Of a stretch of 64,000 nucleotides of DNA, positions 11,556 to 32,390 are shown piece after piece. The first letter of the stretch is position 1; each line of letters opens with the position of its first letter. This DNA is from Candidozyma auris (taxonomy: Eukaryota; Ascomycota; Pichiomycetes; Serinales; Metschnikowiaceae), in contig NC_072816.1 of assembly GCF_003013715.1 (NCBI RefSeq), forward strand, positions 682,001 to 746,000, read 5' to 3'. The notes under the pieces are model-generated. The model was not told the DNA's origin. It ran no database searches and worked only from the letters and a program-made list of their open reading frames with translations. Both the position numbers and the translations under genes were made by a program.

Positions 11556-12913
11556 TTAGTTCATCTGCTTAACCAAGTTGTTGATGAAGTGCTCTCTGTT
11601 ACCAGTGTCACCACCCTGGATGAAGTGGAAGAACTTTCTAGCTCTGAAACCACCGTTAGGGTTGGACAAGTGGAATGGCCACAAGAAGTTGTTGACCTGC
11701 TTGAAGTTAGGACCAACGGTGTAGATCTCGTGGATCAAGTCCTCCATGGAGGCAATACCGTACTTGCCCAAAGCACCCTCAATGATGGCGTTGTCAGTCA
11801 AGGCGATTCTCTGGGTGTTGATCTTACCGTAACCTCTCTTGTAGATCAACTTTCTCACGGTAGCCAAGTTGGGGTAACCGTAGGTGATGTAAGGCTCAGC
11901 CAACTTGAGCAACTCAGAGGTGGCCTTGGTAACCTTGACGAAAACACCAGAGTTGATCTGAGTCAAACGGAGCAACTGCAAGATCTTTCTTGGCTTTGGT
12001 GGGATCTTGGAGATACCCTTGATTCTGATGACGAACACCAACTTTGGCTCGGCCTCAACGTAGAAAGAGTTGGTGGCCTTGGCCTCACGCTTGGCTTCAA
12101 TAAGAGCACGCTCAGCATCTCTGTACTCCTTGTAGTAGGCGGCGGTTCTCTCAGCAATAGCCTTTCTCTTCTCCTTGTTAGCCTGGGGATGTTAGTAACA
12201 AAAGTTGGGGAAAATCAGGAGGTTTATATTTTCTCAGTCCCGAAAGATGGTTAACTGATAGACAGCATTGCCGTGGCTAGTCATATTCCGAATAGATTGT
12301 CATCTTCAAAAAGAACCTCCTTCATAGTGGCAATTTGTACATACTTCTTTTCTGGCGGCCTTGTCGGCGGCACGCTTCTCAAGAACCTTAGCGTCGGTCT
12401 TGGTCTTCTTGATCTGAGTCTCTGGTTTCAAGGTACTAAATGTTAGCTTATGTTCGGATTACGGCAGAGGTTGGGCGGAGGTTGGTGCAGGTTATGAGAG
12501 ACACGGCCAGGGTCAATTGATGACTAAGACTAGTCAGCAGCAGAAGCAATCAACGTCCATACGAAATTCTCAAAATGAGTTCTAAGAGACACCTTGATAT
12601 TATACCATCAGGTTTGGCGTACAGTAGGACAAAGGACGGATCGACGAGTCGATTTCCTTCCTTCTCGTTGAATGCTTAGCCAGTGTTATAGCGCTTTCCA
12701 TGGATGAAAAAATTCTTCCGTGGAACAGCGCTGTCATAACTGAAACGGGTGACAAGACCAACCCACGATTACCCTGGGATGATAAACTGGTCACTCGCTT
12801 CCTCTTCGAACTCGAGGTTTGTAAACCTCTCAGGCGCTCGAAGGACACCATACCTCAAGCCGAACGTTGCCGAGCAGGAAGTAGTGATGATTTGTGGGTA
12901 CATACGTAGCCAT
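11556..12913 (-). CDS. RPL7: 60S ribosomal protein L7 (uL30), three exons
   Basis: The exons are 12906-12913 (8 nt), 12345-12435 and 11556-12182. Joined, they encode 241 residues starting [15 protein letters not shown] and ending NNLVKQMN; S. cerevisiae Rpl7 has 244. The core [18 protein letters not shown] is diagnostic of eukaryotic L7, a large-subunit protein that binds 25S rRNA. Both introns have GTATGT donors. Acceptors follow GCTAAC or TACTAAC by only a few bases (CTAACATTTAG and CTAACATCCCCAG). The two-intron arrangement with a minute first exon is as in S. cerevisiae RPL7A/B. A C/D snoRNA lies in intron 2. Codon use is strongly biased, as in highly expressed genes. A TATA box, a Tbf1-like element and a CACGTG lie upstream. 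Confidence 0.97.
12183..12344 (-). other. RPL7 intron 2 (162 nt)
   Basis: The donor is GTATGT at 12344 and the branch point is TACTAAC, followed by ATCCCCAG at the acceptor. It hosts a C/D snoRNA. The flanking exons join in frame between residues 33 and 34. Confidence 0.93.
12218..12320 (-). ncRNA. Intronic C/D box snoRNA, snR39/snR59 type
   Basis: Inside RPL7 intron 2, the 7-bp inverted repeat GGAGGTT / AACCTCC (12314-12320 and 12218-12224) brackets a C-box-like AAGATGA and a D box CTGA (12234-12237). The bases just upstream of the D box read AACCATCTTTCGGGA. This is complementary over 13 bases to the 25S rRNA segment CCCGAAAGATGGT. In S. cerevisiae that segment is methylated under guidance of snR39 and snR59 (A807) and snR39b (G805), and snR39 and snR59 themselves lie in RPL7 introns. 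The D+5 rule applied here points to the G of CCCG, the snR39b target. The C box is one base off consensus. Processing would be from the spliced intron. Confidence 0.85.
12436..12905 (-). other. RPL7 intron 1 (470 nt)
   Basis: The donor GTATGT begins at 12905. The branch point is GCTAAC, with the acceptor TAG six bases later. It interrupts codon 3 after two bases. I see no clear snoRNA boxes on the gene strand, only a short GAGGTTTGTAAACCTC hairpin near 12815. Confidence 0.9.
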
Positions 12914-12964
12914 TGTTAGAGTTGGTGATGAGGTAAAAAAATTGTAGGGTGGAAAATTGAGATC

Positions 12965-23831: not shown

Positions 23832-24096
23832 ATGGTATGTTGCGGCGAAAATTGCATAACTTCATCTCGCTTACTAACGTTAGTCTGCCCTTTTCAACTT
23901 TCAGTCGTTGCTTCTAGTCATTTTGTTGGCTATTTGCACTTGCACCTATGTCCATGCCACTTGGCCAGCGCTTTTGGACAAGAACAAGAGCGGTGCTTTT
24001 GGCGTCTTTTGGAAATTTGCCCGTATTGGTGAGCGTTTGAGTCCCTACGTGGCAATTGGTTGCTTCATCATGGCGTTTAATGTTCTTTCAGGATAA
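23832..24096 (+). CDS. KSH1: KSH1 (KISH family), spliced
   Basis: Exon 1 is only the start codon ATG (23832-23834) and exon 2 is 23884-24096. The 49-nt intron has the donor GTATGT and a TACTAAC branch point followed directly by GTTAG. The joined 71-residue product begins [15 protein letters not shown]. It shares [22 protein letters not shown] sequence with human KISH-A (72 aa) and yeast Ksh1. Two membrane spans flank a short loop containing [15 protein letters not shown]. Ksh1 is an essential small protein of the early secretory pathway. Choosing a later acceptor would lose the conserved SALFNFQ, so the first AG is the right one. Confidence 0.95.
23835..23883 (+). other. KSH1 intron (49 nt)
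   Basis: This minimal intron has the donor GTATGT and the branch point TACTAAC; the acceptor TAG ends five bases after the branch-point motif. It immediately follows the initiator codon. Confidence 0.93.
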
Positions 24097-27638: not shown

Positions 27639-29012
27639 ATGCGAAAACTCACGAACTTCGTCAGGTCGCTCTTCTCCATCGCGTACTTGGCCTTGATCGT
27701 GCTTACGGTGCCCCTAGCATTTGACTTGGGCGGTGTTGAGTGTGGGCTCACATACTCCCTCACCATTGTGGTGCTATACTTTCTTCTCACGTCTGTCAGG
27801 CTTCTTTGCAAGCGGTTCCCCGTGCTCAAGCTCTTGGTCCCGCTCTACTATGCCCAGCACGTGTTTCTACCGAGTATCTTGATGTACATCATTCTGTACT
27901 GCCAGAACCAGAACAGCAGGTCTTACTTTGCTGTGGTGGCCGTGTGGCGCTACATTTTGGTCCACCTGACCCCAGTGTTCACCATTGCCGAGGGTTTTTG
28001 CTCGTTGCTTTTGCTCCAGGCGATTTCCCAGACGTTGGACTGGCTCACTTTGTACAAGTCTGATAGCTGGCTCTTTGTTTCGTTAATAGGCTCCGGGTTC
28101 ACCATCACAGGCGCCTTGTACTTCTTGTACAGAATCTACGTGTTGCCCTTCACTATTGAGTTGGGCAGCGCCTCGCTTCTAGGCTCCTTTTTGACGTTGA
28201 CCATCGGGCTCGGTTTTTATGGAATTGTTTCCGGAAAGGGCTCCATGATCGAGTCCTCCTTGTTGTTTGCCTACATTGTGCGCTGCATCTACGAGATGTT
28301 CCCTCTGCTCTCGGATAACGCTGCTCAGACATTGACCCACCTCTTCACCCAGACGAAAATCAATTTGCAAAACGAGATCCCCAGGCTCCCTCCGCCTCTC
28401 ACAAATACCATACTGGCTGTGCTCCCCTTCTTGGCACAAAACTTACCGGGCTCTTTCAAAACGATATGGGACTTCTTTCTTTCTTCGGCTGAAAAGCTCA
28501 CCTTACCGTTGGTTGTGAATTTGGCCTACAGAATTGGTGTCTTCTACGCCGCTACAAAGATCATCCCCTCCTTATATCATCGCCTACCGTATTCTCCGCC
28601 AAGAACACCTCCGCACATCAGCTCACGCCTGTCATCATCCGCATCCATTTCCCCCATCTCTCTGAGCTCTTCTACGTCTCTGCAAGCAAACGAGAAAGGC
28701 AACGAGCGTCTAAAGATCAACCGCGCCCGTGCAAGGGCTCGTCCATCCACTACAATAAGGTTGATCTATGCATACTCCCCTTGCATCATTATTGCCGTTT
28801 ACACTCATATGATGCTTCTGTATAATGGGGAGCTTGGCTCCGAGCTCAAGCTCTGGGGCTGGTGGGCTTCTGCCCCGAAGGATATGGTGATCATCGTGCA
28901 CCCTTGGCAATTCTGGAACTGGGTCAAAATGGGCACCACTCTTCTACTCTACATGTTAGAATTATCTGGCGACTCGAGCTCGGCCATGACTAGCCACTGG
29001 CTGGTGAATTGA
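27639..29012 (+). CDS. ICE2: ICE2, ER membrane protein
   Basis: This 457-residue multi-spanning protein begins with about eight hydrophobic segments. GGVECGLTYSLT near the N-terminus, the central GFYGIVSGKGSMIESSLLF followed by AYIVRCIYE, and the late YSPCIIIAVYTHMMLLY match Ice2 of S. cerevisiae (491 aa) almost position for position. A Ser/Pro-rich loop (about 320-370) precedes the last membrane segments. Ice2 is needed for cortical ER inheritance. It also inhibits the Nem1-Spo7-Pah1 phosphatase cascade, thereby promoting ER membrane biogenesis. The start ATG at 27639 gives the expected N-terminus. Confidence 0.94.
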   Translation: MRKLTNFVRSLFSIAYLALIVLTVPLAFDLGGVECGLTYSLTIVVLYFLLTSVRLLCKRFPVLKLLVPLYYAQHVFLPSILMYIILYCQNQNSRSYFAVVAVWRYILVHLTPVFTIAEGFCSLLLLQAISQTLDWLTLYKSDSWLFVSLIGSGFTITGALYFLYRIYVLPFTIELGSASLLGSFLTLTIGLGFYGIVSGKGSMIESSLLFAYIVRCIYEMFPLLSDNAAQTLTHLFTQTKINLQNEIPRLPPPLTNTILAVLPFLAQNLPGSFKTIWDFFLSSAEKLTLPLVVNLAYRIGVFYAATKIIPSLYHRLPYSPPRTPPHISSRLSSSASISPISLSSSTSLQANEKGNERLKINRARARARPSTTIRLIYAYSPCIIIAVYTHMMLLYNGELGSELKLWGWWASAPKDMVIIVHPWQFWNWVKMGTTLLLYMLELSGDSSSAMTSHWLVN

Positions 29013-29209
29013 CCAAACCACTTCCTAGGTGTGTGTTGGGACAGTCAACCGTGGGTCACATTTGCAGCGCTTAAATTCGATTTGCTGCTTACCATAAGTT
29101 TTTTCTTCAACGATGTACTATAGTTAATTTTAAATTTTACAAAGTGGTATTCTGTAAGTAACATTTCAGTAGGGTGAATTTCACAACGCTTAGGTCATGA
29201 CCGGATGAT

Positions 29210-29325
29210 CTCTTCAGAAAAATTATGCAAATCTCGTCCACGAAAGAAAACCAGCCATCTTTCCAGACTGTGAAATCCTCTCAGAGCTTGACTCTATGTT
29301 TGCTTTGGTATTTCATCATTCAAAG
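29210..29325 (-). ncRNA. C/D box snoRNA, snR66 type (25S U2417)
   Basis: On the minus strand an ATGATGA C box (29313-29319) is followed after 28 bases by a CTGA box (29281-29284). The 12 bases immediately before that CTGA (29285-29296) are complementary to AGCUUGACUCUA of 25S rRNA. By the box+5 rule the target is the second U of GCUU, which I number U2417 in S. cerevisiae, the snR66 site. A second CTGA (29214-29217) would be the terminal D box, so the first acts as D'. The upstream guide half has no rRNA match I recognise. It lies between the ICE2 3' end and the RNase MRP RNA candidate, on the same strand as the latter. Ends are approximate. Confidence 0.8.
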
Positions 29326-29457
29326 GCGGTCAAGACAGTTCAGTATGAAATCCACCCATACCCAAATGATAATTACAAAATGAAGTTCGGTACATTTGAC
29401 TGTACAAATATCTCATCTAGAAATAGATATCGAACTTGAAAAAAAAAGTAAGGAGGG

Positions 29458-29977
29458 ACGTTCATAGACAAGAGTGAGCTCCATTGGGTTAGCCAAATTG
29501 GCCATTTGCTATACCTATCGTTTAGGACACGTCGTCCCAGTGCCGAAAGACAAAACTCCAGAAAAATCCAGAGGAAGCAACGATGGCAGCATCAAGAGTG
29601 CCCACACAGCAACAGCGGTCGTGAGCTCAGTTGTGAGAAACAAGTACAGCCAAAGACCTCGTGATTCCTCGTTTTCACCACCAACAAACTGCCCTGAGCA
29701 AAGCTCATAAAGTTCAAAGGAACAAGCAGGTATTGGATTTAAGTGATGGAGAAAACCACAGAGGTAAATGACGTATCCTTGAAACCAAGACCAGCGGCCA
29801 CTGCTGATAAAGTGACGAGCCTTATTCCTTCAGCCCGCCATCGTGCAAACGGAGGAATTCTTCCGTTGCGTTTCCGCTGTCACGGCCGGAGACTTTCCCC
29901 GAAGCATTAGTCATTTTGCAGACCTGGCGAAAACGCCATTACGTAGGCTTCGAAAACAAATCGTTGTCTATGAACGT
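29458..29977 (-). ncRNA. NME1: RNase MRP RNA (NME1) candidate
   Basis: The 520-base minus-strand unit is closed by a perfect 14-bp inverted repeat ending TTGTCTATGAACGT (29458-29471 with 29964-29977), the expected P1 helix. Downstream in the RNA come TTCGAAGCCTACGTAATGG, a TGGCG-TTTT-CGCCA hairpin (29925-29938), GCTTCGGGGAAAGTCTCCGG around 29886-29905 and GCGGAAACGCAACGG. As I remember it, S. cerevisiae NME1 has the same succession: ATCGAAGCTTACAAAATGG, a GAGTAAAATTTTACTC hairpin, GCTTTGGGTTGAAAGTCTCC and GCGGAAAACG. GAAAGTCTCC is the CR-I core. A TATA box lies about 36 bases upstream of the 5' end and a T-run follows the 3' end. The RNA would cut pre-rRNA at site A3. RNase P RNA is the alternative, but its yeast CR-I differs. 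Confidence 0.85.
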
Positions 29978-30012
29978 GAAGAAAAAAGAGAAGCTGAGCG
30001 ATGCGCTCTGGT

Positions 30013-30064
30013 TATATAGTGGGTTTTTCGTGCGTGCGCGGCCCAAGGAATAGAGATTAGGGTT
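30013..30064 (-). promoter_or_regulatory. Promoter of the NME1 candidate: TATATA and TTAGGGTT
   Basis: TATATA at 30013-30018 lies 36 bases upstream of the predicted RNA 5' end. TTAGGGTT (30057-30064), a Tbf1-type motif, lies about 80 bases upstream. No coding gene starts here on either strand, so the elements are best explained by the RNA gene. Confidence 0.65.
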
Positions 30065-30287
30065 TGAAGAAGATAAAGAAGTTGACATTTCTACACCAGA
30101 GGATGCATTTCAGGAACTTTTGATATCATTAGGAGATCAAGAAGTTCAAGGTTTTGTGGTGAGAATTTCAGTTTCACGTAAGCCAATAGCTTGTTGGATT
30201 ATTTTACAATTTGATGATCTCTGCGATTTTGCAGCCATTTGGTTGCAGACGAACCACCATAACTCTTTCCCAACGGATTCCCACTAA
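30054..30287 (+). pseudogene. Coding-like fragment, unidentified
   Basis: The open stretch lacks a start codon near its beginning. Its first 30 codons read as an acidic, amphipathic protein segment (EVDISTPEDAFQELLISLG). After about codon 35 the composition deteriorates. It overlaps the promoter of the NME1 candidate. It may be the remnant of a lost gene or an exon fragment; I do not recognise the family. Confidence 0.25.
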
Positions 30288-30988
30288 AAAGGGGAAGGCG
30301 ATAAATTCGCATGAGATAATTTAGGCAACACGCACATATTGACTCACCCGTTATGGCGCTCAGATACGACCATGTATCGGCGATCACTAGCAAGACAAGC
30401 CAAATTCCCATTAAAGGCCGTACATTGGTGTACTACGTCGGGACCTTTCTCCGTACACTGTTTGAGTTTCAGTAAATGATTCTCTCTTAGGGAAATGACG
30501 TTTCCAGAAGCCTTATGATCACGATTTGTGATGGTCACTCAGTAGGGTCTCAAAATGAATTCTCACACTGTCGATTCCATCTTCTTACCGATAGGGATAT
30601 GTTCTTTGGGCTAGCCTGTTAGCTACCTCAGAGTTGATGTTTCTCGATGTTTTACGATAAGCCAGGTTTGAGTAATCTCACGCAGAACCACATTGCACTG
30701 TGGTTGAGTATGAGAGCAACTCCTCCCCGGTAGCCACAAATGCACGACACAATGGTCAATGTTGCTTGTTGAAGCCGCTCTTCAATTCACGCTCGTGACA
30801 TTTTAACTCCCCGTGTGATGGTCTGTTGACAAGATCTCGAGCTCAAGATTTATATATCACTGTGAATCATACAATGGGTTCGAGGTTTGTTTGTTACCAT
30901 AGACTTACCCACACTGGCACAATATGTCAGCCATGGAGATGGAAATATAAGATGTGTAGGAGACTGATACGCATCGAGAAACAAATTT
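30288..30988. other. Intergenic region downstream of PBR1
   Basis: About 700 bases with no supported gene. The short frames present are not protein-like. It lies at the 3' side of PBR1. Confidence 0.45.
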
Positions 30989-32242
30989 TCAAAAGATTAA
31001 TTCGCTCATGGAATTGGGCAAGAACGATACTAACCTGTCGTATGCGCGGGCCCCGGTGCCACAGTAAACGACAGATGGAGAGCGGCCCTCATAAAAGATT
31101 AAGTCAAAAAGTACATGGTACAACTCGCGTAAGCCTTTGCTTTTGAAAGAACTGCCCATTGGCCTCAGATGCGCCTGAGACTTCAGAAAGTCAGATCCAT
31201 AGGCACTACGCATTTCCTCGCTCCACAGTCGAATCTCTGCTTCGACAATCGTGGGCACACTATCTGAACCAATTGCAGCGCCTGTTTTCGAAGTGGCAAG
31301 GTTCAAGTTTCCGAGACGCACTTGCGTAACGTTTATATTCTGGGGTCTCAACTCCTTCGCTAGTGTAGTAAAAATATCCTTCATGCTATTTTGCAAGACC
31401 GACTCAGGCCCGTGGTAGGGCATTCGAAGCGAGCTCACGATGCTGGGCACTATGGCCACAATACTGCTTTCCTGCTCACGTACAATATCCAAAAGACCCG
31501 AACAGAGAAGCTTCGTGGTTACGTTCAATCGAAAGAGCAGTTTCTGCCATCCAGGCTCAGACATGTTCTCAAGAGGGCCAAGGGGGAAGTATAGCGTGGG
31601 CGCAAACACCACCGCAGAAAGCCGAAGGTAGTGAGCATCGGCGCCTGGGAAGGGAACCACACTCACATGTAGAATCTTGCGAAATTTCGCAAGATGAGCA
31701 TCGTAAGTATCCTCAACCAAATTCAAATAGTTGATGTCGTCAGTGATTTGGTTTGACTGGATGTACTTATAGTCCTTGTCATCAAGAATGGTCAAGTAGA
31801 CAATGAATCCACGCTTCTCGAAATCGACAGCGATCAACCGGGTCATTGGTTCAGTGGGAGACCCGACTACCAAAACAACATCTCTGCGGGCGCCATTGGC
31901 GAGCTTGGGCACTCTTCGACGAAGCTTATTCTTCAGCTTGGGGGTATTGATATGGTTGTATAAAAGGTAGGTTGATACCGTCAATGAAGTGGCAAAACAC
32001 GATATGAATGCAAGCTTGTGGTCCTGGATCAATTTGGAGAGACGATCCAATGTCTTTTCTTGTGGCTGTGGAGGCGGATGGTCCTCAGATTTGAGTATGG
32101 AGAAGATCTTCAGGTTGAATACCTGATCCAGGCTAGGGAGCGAATCATTGACCATTTGCAGCAGGGAGTTGAGGATGCCACAAACGGAATGGTAGGCCAG
32201 GCGTAAAGCGTCTGTTGCGGCCAGAACAGGTTCAGCTACCAT
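30989..32242 (-). CDS. PBR1: PBR1-like putative oxidoreductase (DUF1776, SDR-related)
   Basis: This 417-residue protein has one membrane segment (about 78-95) and an SDR-like domain after it. RDVVLVVGSPTEPMTRLIA near residue 120 replaces the usual TGxxxGIG dinucleotide motif. SSIVAIVPSIVSSLRMPYHGPES near residue 262 holds the region corresponding to the catalytic Ser/Tyr of SDR enzymes, with a modified YxxxK. This pattern is the DUF1776 family, to which S. cerevisiae Pbr1 (YNL181W) belongs. The yeast protein is required for viability in some backgrounds and its substrate is unknown. Family assignment is fairly sure, enzymatic activity is not. The tRNA-His gene lies 76 bases upstream on the same strand. 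Confidence 0.8.
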   Translation of the reverse strand: MVAEPVLAATDALRLAYHSVCGILNSLLQMVNDSLPSLDQVFNLKIFSILKSEDHPPPQPQEKTLDRLSKLIQDHKLAFISCFATSLTVSTYLLYNHINTPKLKNKLRRRVPKLANGARRDVVLVVGSPTEPMTRLIAVDFEKRGFIVYLTILDDKDYKYIQSNQITDDINYLNLVEDTYDAHLAKFRKILHVSVVPFPGADAHYLRLSAVVFAPTLYFPLGPLENMSEPGWQKLLFRLNVTTKLLCSGLLDIVREQESSIVAIVPSIVSSLRMPYHGPESVLQNSMKDIFTTLAKELRPQNINVTQVRLGNLNLATSKTGAAIGSDSVPTIVEAEIRLWSEEMRSAYGSDFLKSQAHLRPMGSSFKSKGLRELYHVLFDLIFYEGRSPSVVYCGTGARAYDRLVSFLPNSMSELIF

Positions 32243-32318: not shown

Positions 32319-32390
32319 TGCCGGCCCCAGGAATCGAACCTGGGTTTGTTCGGCCACAACGAACTGTACTAACCACTATACTAGACCGGC
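32319..32390 (-). tRNA. tRNA-His (anticodon GTG)
   Basis: The 72-base cloverleaf has a 7-bp acceptor stem (GCCGGTC / GGCCGGC), a D arm with TAGTGGTTAGTAC, an anticodon stem GTTCG/CGAAC with loop TTGTGGC (GTG, histidine), and a T arm with the B box GGTTCGATTCC. The discriminator base is A. The base before position 1 is C, so the extra G-1 of tRNA-His would be added after transcription. No intron is present. A run of eight T on the gene strand shortly downstream (32302-32309) is the Pol III terminator. Confidence 0.97.

Follow-up and report, generated by a model that had tools for sequence, protein, structure and literature searches.

An RNase MRP RNA gene between two convergent genes

The window analysed here is a 64-kb stretch of Candidozyma auris DNA. 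Within it, the genes for ICE2 (27639-29012, plus strand; PF08426) and for a DUF1776 protein (30989-32242, minus strand; PF08643) converge, with 1,976 bases between them. The ICE2 protein is 85% identical to a protein of Candidozyma duobushaemuli. On the minus strand of the intervening DNA, we located an RNase MRP RNA gene and, downstream of it, a probable gene for the C/D snoRNA snR66. The features of the locus are collected in Table 1; for the MRP RNA, the window coordinate equals 29975 minus the RNA position. No ATG-started ORF of more than 54 aa overlaps the MRP RNA. A tRNA-His (GTG) gene was also seen in the window, at 32319-32390 on the minus strand.

Table 1. Features of the MRP RNA gene, its upstream region and its neighbours in window coordinates
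Feature	Position	Strand	Remarks
RNase MRP RNA gene (NME1 homologue), 513 nt	29462..29974	-	RF00030 match; ends predicted
P1 helix, 5' strand	29964..29977	-	perfect inverted repeat; 14 bp possible, 10 bp within the Rfam match
P1 helix, 3' strand	29458..29471	-	perfect inverted repeat
P2, 5' strand AUUUGU	29956..29961	-	pairs with 29504-29509; Rfam alignment
P2, 3' strand GCAAAU	29504..29509	-	Rfam alignment and constrained fold
P3	29899..29953	-	proximal stem UCGAAGC/GCUUCGG; distal hairpin UGGCGUUUUCGCCA at 29925-29938
CR-I GGGGAAAGUCUCCGG (core GGGGAAAGTCTCCGG)	29886..29900	-	Rfam alignment and constrained fold
P4, 5' strand AG(U)CUCC, bulged U	29888-29894	-	within CR-I
P8 hairpin GCG-GAAA-CGC	29868..29877	-	tetraloop (GARA) version of GARAR, an MRP-specific element
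Variable domain 2	29553..29867	-	enlarged relative to S. cerevisiae; folds predict mostly one long branched arm
Hairpin UGGGAC-GACGU-GUCCUA, candidate P15	29523..29539	-	constrained fold; named by position, just before CR-IV
CR-IV AUAGGUA	29512..29518	-	two bases ahead of the P2 3' strand
P19 hairpin GCCA-AUU-UGGC	29492..29502	-	Rfam alignment and constrained fold
CR-V	29474..29489	-	P4 3' strand GGAGCU at 29477-29482
TATA box TATATA	30013..30018	-	-44 from the predicted 5' end
T6 run	29982..29987	-	-13 from the predicted 5' end
AACCCTAA (= TTAGGGTT on the plus strand)	30057..30064	-	-90; candidate Tbf1-type site, function inferred
T9 run in the 130-nt MRP-snR66 gap	29439..29447	-	
snR66-like C/D snoRNA	29199..29331	-	RF00477, 46.0 bits; 130 nt downstream of the MRP RNA
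snR66 C box ATGATGA	29313-29319	-	
snR66 D' box CTGA	29281-29284	-	
snR66 D box CTGA	29214-29217	-	
KSH1-type (DUF1242) coding stretch	23908..24012	+	PF06842, 69.6 bits; C5:705908-706012

The assignment of the MRP RNA gene is carried by the Rfam covariance model RF00030, which matched over its whole length (model positions 1-266 of 266) on the minus strand with a score of 97.9 bits and an E-value of 3.8e-26 in the window; the curated cut-off of the model is 50 bits. In the complete genome (12,249,773 bases in 7 contigs), this was the only RF00030 match, and the DNA of the locus is itself present in a single copy. When the same model was run against 14 control genomes, there was one match below the cut-off and none above it. 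From the letters of the window, the initial annotation had proposed a probable RNase MRP RNA gene in a 520-base minus-strand unit (29458-29977), lying in a gap of about 2 kb between convergent genes and explained by no protein gene. It had suggested a covariance search as a check and had named a clear NME1 elsewhere in the genome as evidence against the proposal. The covariance search bears out the identity, a second RF00030 match was looked for and not found, the ends of the match differ from those of the unit by 3-4 bases per side, and the description of the surroundings holds. We put the probability that 29462-29974 (minus strand) is the single-copy RNase MRP RNA gene of this Candidozyma yeast at about 0.97.

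RNase P RNA and MRP RNA have helices P1-P4 and the conserved regions CR-I, CR-IV and CR-V in common, and both families are placed in Rfam clan CL00002. A locus with such a core might instead encode RPR1, the RNase P RNA, or a diverged paralogue of RPR1. However, the RNase P RNA model (RF00009) finds its one locus in the genome elsewhere, on contig C4 (C4:613569-613915; 51.9 bits, cut-off 28). Moreover, a scan of 28400-31200 that admitted E-values up to 10 assigned the region to RF00030, and the loop on P8 has the MRP-type GARA form. An RNase P RNA identity is very improbable and was rejected, the RF00009 gene being a separate locus.

RNase MRP is an essential enzyme that trims rRNA to size in nearly all eukaryotes. 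The MRP RNA locus is a housekeeping gene of an ordinary kind, easily missed, in a well known family. Its precise placing, together with that of a probable snoRNA neighbour, gives the position of an essential but poorly conserved RNA and aids annotation of Candidozyma genomes. In the parts of the literature searched, we found no prior description of this MRP RNA gene or of a conserved MRP-snR66 pair. Sets of C. auris ncRNAs are mentioned in connection with the Candida Genome Database and RNAcentral (PMC8672890), and the gene may have been annotated earlier in such sets.

Structure of the predicted RNA

In its sequence, the RNA shows a catalytic C-domain (P1, P2, P3, P4 between CR-I and CR-V, CR-IV, and P19) and an enlarged domain 2 with P8. 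Helices P1, P2, P3, P4, P8 and P19 are all able to form. Both the Rfam alignment and a constrained fold pair RNA positions 2-11 with 504-513 (P1), 14-19 with 466-471 (P2), 22-28 with 70-76 (P3, with its distal hairpin at 37-50) and 473-476 with 480-483 (P19).

P4 is formed by positions 81-87 (AGUCUCC) and 493-498 (GGAGCU), giving six Watson-Crick pairs with one U bulged. Compared with the Rfam consensus (AGUCCCC and GGGGCU), one C-G pair has become U-A, with both strands changed. The P4 columns are unpaired in the structure line of the RF00030 model; because the pairing is not imposed by the model, we regard this compensated change as the strongest individual piece of structural evidence. The energy of P4 is not outstanding: of 490 further 22-nt segments taken from the RNA, 167 pair with CR-I as strongly as P4 does or more strongly. 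A pattern search of bacterial and archaeal genome contigs for relatives that could show covariation gave at least 119 matches; those listed were all bacterial or archaeal by title, were taken as chance and were not used.

CR-IV (AUAGGUA) departs from the motif AnAGUnA by one substitution, and the U of that motif is sometimes substituted (PMC1796607). The middle of domain 2 aligns poorly to the Rfam consensus and contains many non-standard pairs, as expected of a fast-evolving part of the RNA.

Folded freely, the RNA has a minimum energy of -181.8 kcal/mol, compared with -151.65 +/- 5.86 kcal/mol for 100 shuffled sequences (z = -5.15), none of which folded as well. Imposing the core (P1, P2, P3 and P19) gave -171.2 kcal/mol against the free minimum of -181.8 kcal/mol, and P2 and the proximal part of P3 were not formed in the unconstrained minimum-energy fold of the single sequence.

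These results agree with the structural details of the initial annotation. The perfect 14-bp helix that it described as P1-like is exact on both arms; the CR-I core GGGGAAAGTCTCCGG lies on the minus strand where CR-I is now placed; and the elements that it listed follow in the order it gave (TTCGAAGC, TACGTAATGG, a hairpin, GCTTCGGGG and GCGGAAACG). It had further looked to a CR-V partner that could pair with CR-I as P4; this partner is present, with six Watson-Crick pairs. It had also proposed folding of the unit, for which the z-score above is the outcome.

The loop on P8 lacks the fifth purine of GARAR, as might be seen in a non-functional copy of an MRP RNA gene. Yet the locus is both the sole MRP match and the sole DNA copy in the genome, the six helices named above can form, the change in P4 is compensated, and GARA is known as an occasional natural variant of GARAR (PMC3737539; PMC1796607). 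That the locus is a pseudogene is thus scarcely credible.

Upstream elements

A TATA box, a T-run and the sequence AACCCTAA precede the predicted 5' end of the MRP RNA (Table 1). Yeast NME1 is transcribed by RNA polymerase II. The genome contains two U3 genes (198.0 and 195.4 bits), and both have a similar arrangement, with TATAWA at -51/-52, T9 runs at -16/-18 and TTACCCG at -79/-99. Since this similar promoter layout precedes both U3 genes, we infer that the MRP RNA is most likely transcribed by RNA polymerase II, which would start from the TATA box. Upstream of the RNase P RNA gene, TATAWA and a T-run were found only at ~390-400 nt.

The combination of TATA box and T-run occurs at 32 of 127,200 positions on both strands of the window, in two clusters. 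One is the predicted MRP 5' end. The other is at 12914-12930 on the minus strand and lies, by eye, just ahead of the start codon of a split gene for ribosomal protein L7, so the combination also occurs outside RNA genes. Because it was defined after the MRP and U3 promoters had been viewed, it is only suggestive.

AACCCTAA resembles a Tbf1 site. In yeast, Tbf1 is reported to act as a transcription factor for snoRNAs (PMC7277114). We considered a Tbf1-type site followed by a TATA box as a general ncRNA promoter signature and rejected it: genome-wide, AACCCTAA followed by TATAWA at an MRP-like spacing gave five matches, as against eight for a reversed control pattern, and at Rfam gathering thresholds the five loci around the matches held no ncRNA gene besides MRP. 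Within the 400 nt upstream of the U3 genes, AACCCTAA was found at neither (0 of 2). The TATA element and the TTAGGGTT element that had been pointed out upstream of the unit are both present, and TTAGGGTT remains a candidate site; their pairing is not a genome-wide signature.

The U3 genes have the Reb1-like TTACCCG at -79/-99, where the MRP gene has AACCCTAA at -90. The two sequences perhaps serve general factors that can replace one another within a common promoter layout.

A snR66-like snoRNA gene downstream

The minus-strand sequence at 29199-29331, overlooked in the initial annotation, is a probable snR66 C/D snoRNA. The whole of model RF00477 is covered; the score of 46.0 bits lies below the gathering cut-off of 65, and the E-value was 6.8e-6 when 2.8 kb were scanned and 0.00015 for the whole window. 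At E-values up to 1, this was the single match in the genome, and two of the 14 control genomes were matched, neither above the cut-off. C, D' and D boxes are in place (Table 1), and the guide block upstream of D' is conserved with the RF00477 model. The snR66 homologue of N. crassa guides through its D' guide (PMC2780460).

A search for the 25S target of the guide gave no clean one-stretch match, the site lying within the final 60 bases of contig C5, where the sequence is possibly unreliable. Contig C5 ends inside 25S rDNA (C5:1002000-1007026). The conserved 25S stretch that follows AAGACCCTGTT at the contig end differs from the expected sequence, and this discrepancy is perhaps an assembly error. 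A second 5.8S match, partial and scoring 43.8 bits, was observed at C5:961500-963500, with an apparent 18S end and ITS1 ahead of it and an N run after it.

Elsewhere in the window, an exon for ribosomal protein L7 lies at 11556-12191 on the minus strand (PF00327, PF08079). It is preceded on the same strand by a weak snR39-like C/D snoRNA match at 12232-12313 (28.9 bits, cut-off 40; E-value 0.49 in the window). In S. cerevisiae, snR39 sits in an intron of RPL7A, and the snR39-like snoRNA may lie inside an intron of the L7 gene here.

Gene order and transcription of the MRP-snR66 pair

The main interest of the locus, besides annotation, is the conserved pairing of MRP RNA and snR66. Followed along the RNA genes, the order in C. 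auris is MRP, snR66, ICE2, UTP25 and, on the opposite strand, a KSH1-type gene. The KSH1-type stretch is the only DUF1242 match (PF06842) in the genome, DUF1242 being the Kish family.

In S. cerevisiae, the order is SSN8, NME1 (YNCN0013W), SNR66 (YNCN0014W) and KSH1 (YNL024C-A); NME1 and SNR66 are W-strand genes and KSH1 is a C-strand gene (PMC9731477). There, KSH1 adjoins SNR66, whereas the KSH1-type gene of C. auris is ~5.2 kb from snR66, in the same relative orientation and, unlike in S. cerevisiae, with ICE2 and UTP25 intervening. On the other side of the MRP gene, SSN8 is found in S. cerevisiae and the DUF1776 gene in C. auris. Cyclin and Sam50 families were absent from all 24 ORFs of at least 150 aa in the window when these were scanned with Pfam, smaller and split genes falling outside the scan. 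The proximity of the KSH1-type gene to the MRP-snR66 pair points to an old gene order. In the two species compared, the pair and the KSH1-type gene appear to be old neighbours, with the other flank differing.

In addition, MRP RNA and snR66 might be made from the MRP promoter as one dicistronic precursor, to be split by RNase III and exonucleases. The two RNAs are on one strand with only 130 nt between them. In the 400 nt upstream of snR66, there is no TATAWA, AACCCTAA or TTACCCG, whilst TATAWA lies within 60 nt for the MRP gene and each of the U3 genes; yet little weight attaches to the lack of a TATA box in a stretch of 130 nt, and a T9 run lies beyond the MRP 3' end. S. cerevisiae likewise has NME1 and SNR66 side by side on a single strand (PMC9731477), but with a KSH1-type gene nearby as well, conserved gene order would explain the pair equally well. 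The snR66 of S. cerevisiae is among the known Rnt1p substrates, but it alone of these was not upregulated in rnt1-delta (PMC4334505). The 130-nt gap of C. auris folds in an ordinary manner (z = -0.25; 73 of 200 shuffles as good), which gives no support for an RNase III-type hairpin there.

Alternatively, snR66 may have a promoter of another kind or be intronic, as are most C/D snoRNAs in the C. parapsilosis group (PMC5033589). Near snR66, the sequence GTATG (29357-29361) could serve as a 5' splice site; a search of the minus strand from 29000 to 30200 gave no TACTAAC. Taken together, we consider a shared precursor unlikely.

A broader proposal is that MRP RNA and snR66 form an ancient unit, expressed as one polymerase II precursor and kept intact from Saccharomyces to a CTG-clade yeast, in an old neighbourhood with the KSH1-type gene that is otherwise partly rearranged. 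This we hold to be quite unlikely. If it were true, a single precursor would yield both an rRNA-cleaving RNA and a guide for rRNA methylation; and if a NME1-SNR66 unit were shared across yeasts, the output of two RNAs of ribosome assembly would be coupled.

Protein partners

The partners of RNase MRP RNA are the shared Pop/Rpp proteins, Rmp1 and Snm1, and the particle cleaves pre-rRNA in ITS1. The predicted C. auris RNA would form the RNA component of a particle with these partners and this activity. Rmp1 is encoded in the genome (PF20945, 100.1 bits; 2e-17 to chain 6w6v_L, RMP1). There are two Rpr2/Snm1-domain proteins. The first resembles p21 and Rpr2 chains; for the second, the only matches were weak ones, to archaeal RNase P component 4 (best E-value 0.0016). 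The second was not recognised as Snm1 from its sequence and is a putative Snm1 by elimination, the other protein matching Rpr2/p21. Yeast Snm1 has the RNase P homologue Rpr2, whilst Rmp1 is restricted to MRP (PMC7351766).

Comparison with related RNAs

Nuclear RNase P RNA (RF00009) has the same catalytic core as MRP RNA. In C. auris, its gene is on contig C4 and, unlike the MRP gene, has no TATA box or T-run near its start.

With NME1 of S. cerevisiae, the C. auris gene has in common the family (RF00030), the C-domain architecture, Rmp1, and snR66 as the next gene on the strand. The two differ in the P8 loop, which is GARA in C. auris and GARAR in S. cerevisiae, where A113 is the fifth nucleotide (PMC7351766). 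They also differ in length, the C. auris RNA having 513 nt and that of S. cerevisiae 339 nt (PMC5033589).

An enlarged domain 2 is common to the MRP RNAs of C. auris and of other CTG-clade yeasts, as compared with the published description of the latter, and the 5' and 3' ends of MRP RNA are conserved among C. parapsilosis, C. orthopsilosis and L. elongisporus (PMC5033589). The C. auris RNA is nonetheless shorter than the four CTG-clade MRP RNAs described, of 991 nt (C. parapsilosis), 971 nt (C. orthopsilosis), 907 nt (L. elongisporus) and 2,226 nt (C. albicans) (PMC5033589). At 513 nt, it provides a further point on the growth and shrinkage of domain 2.
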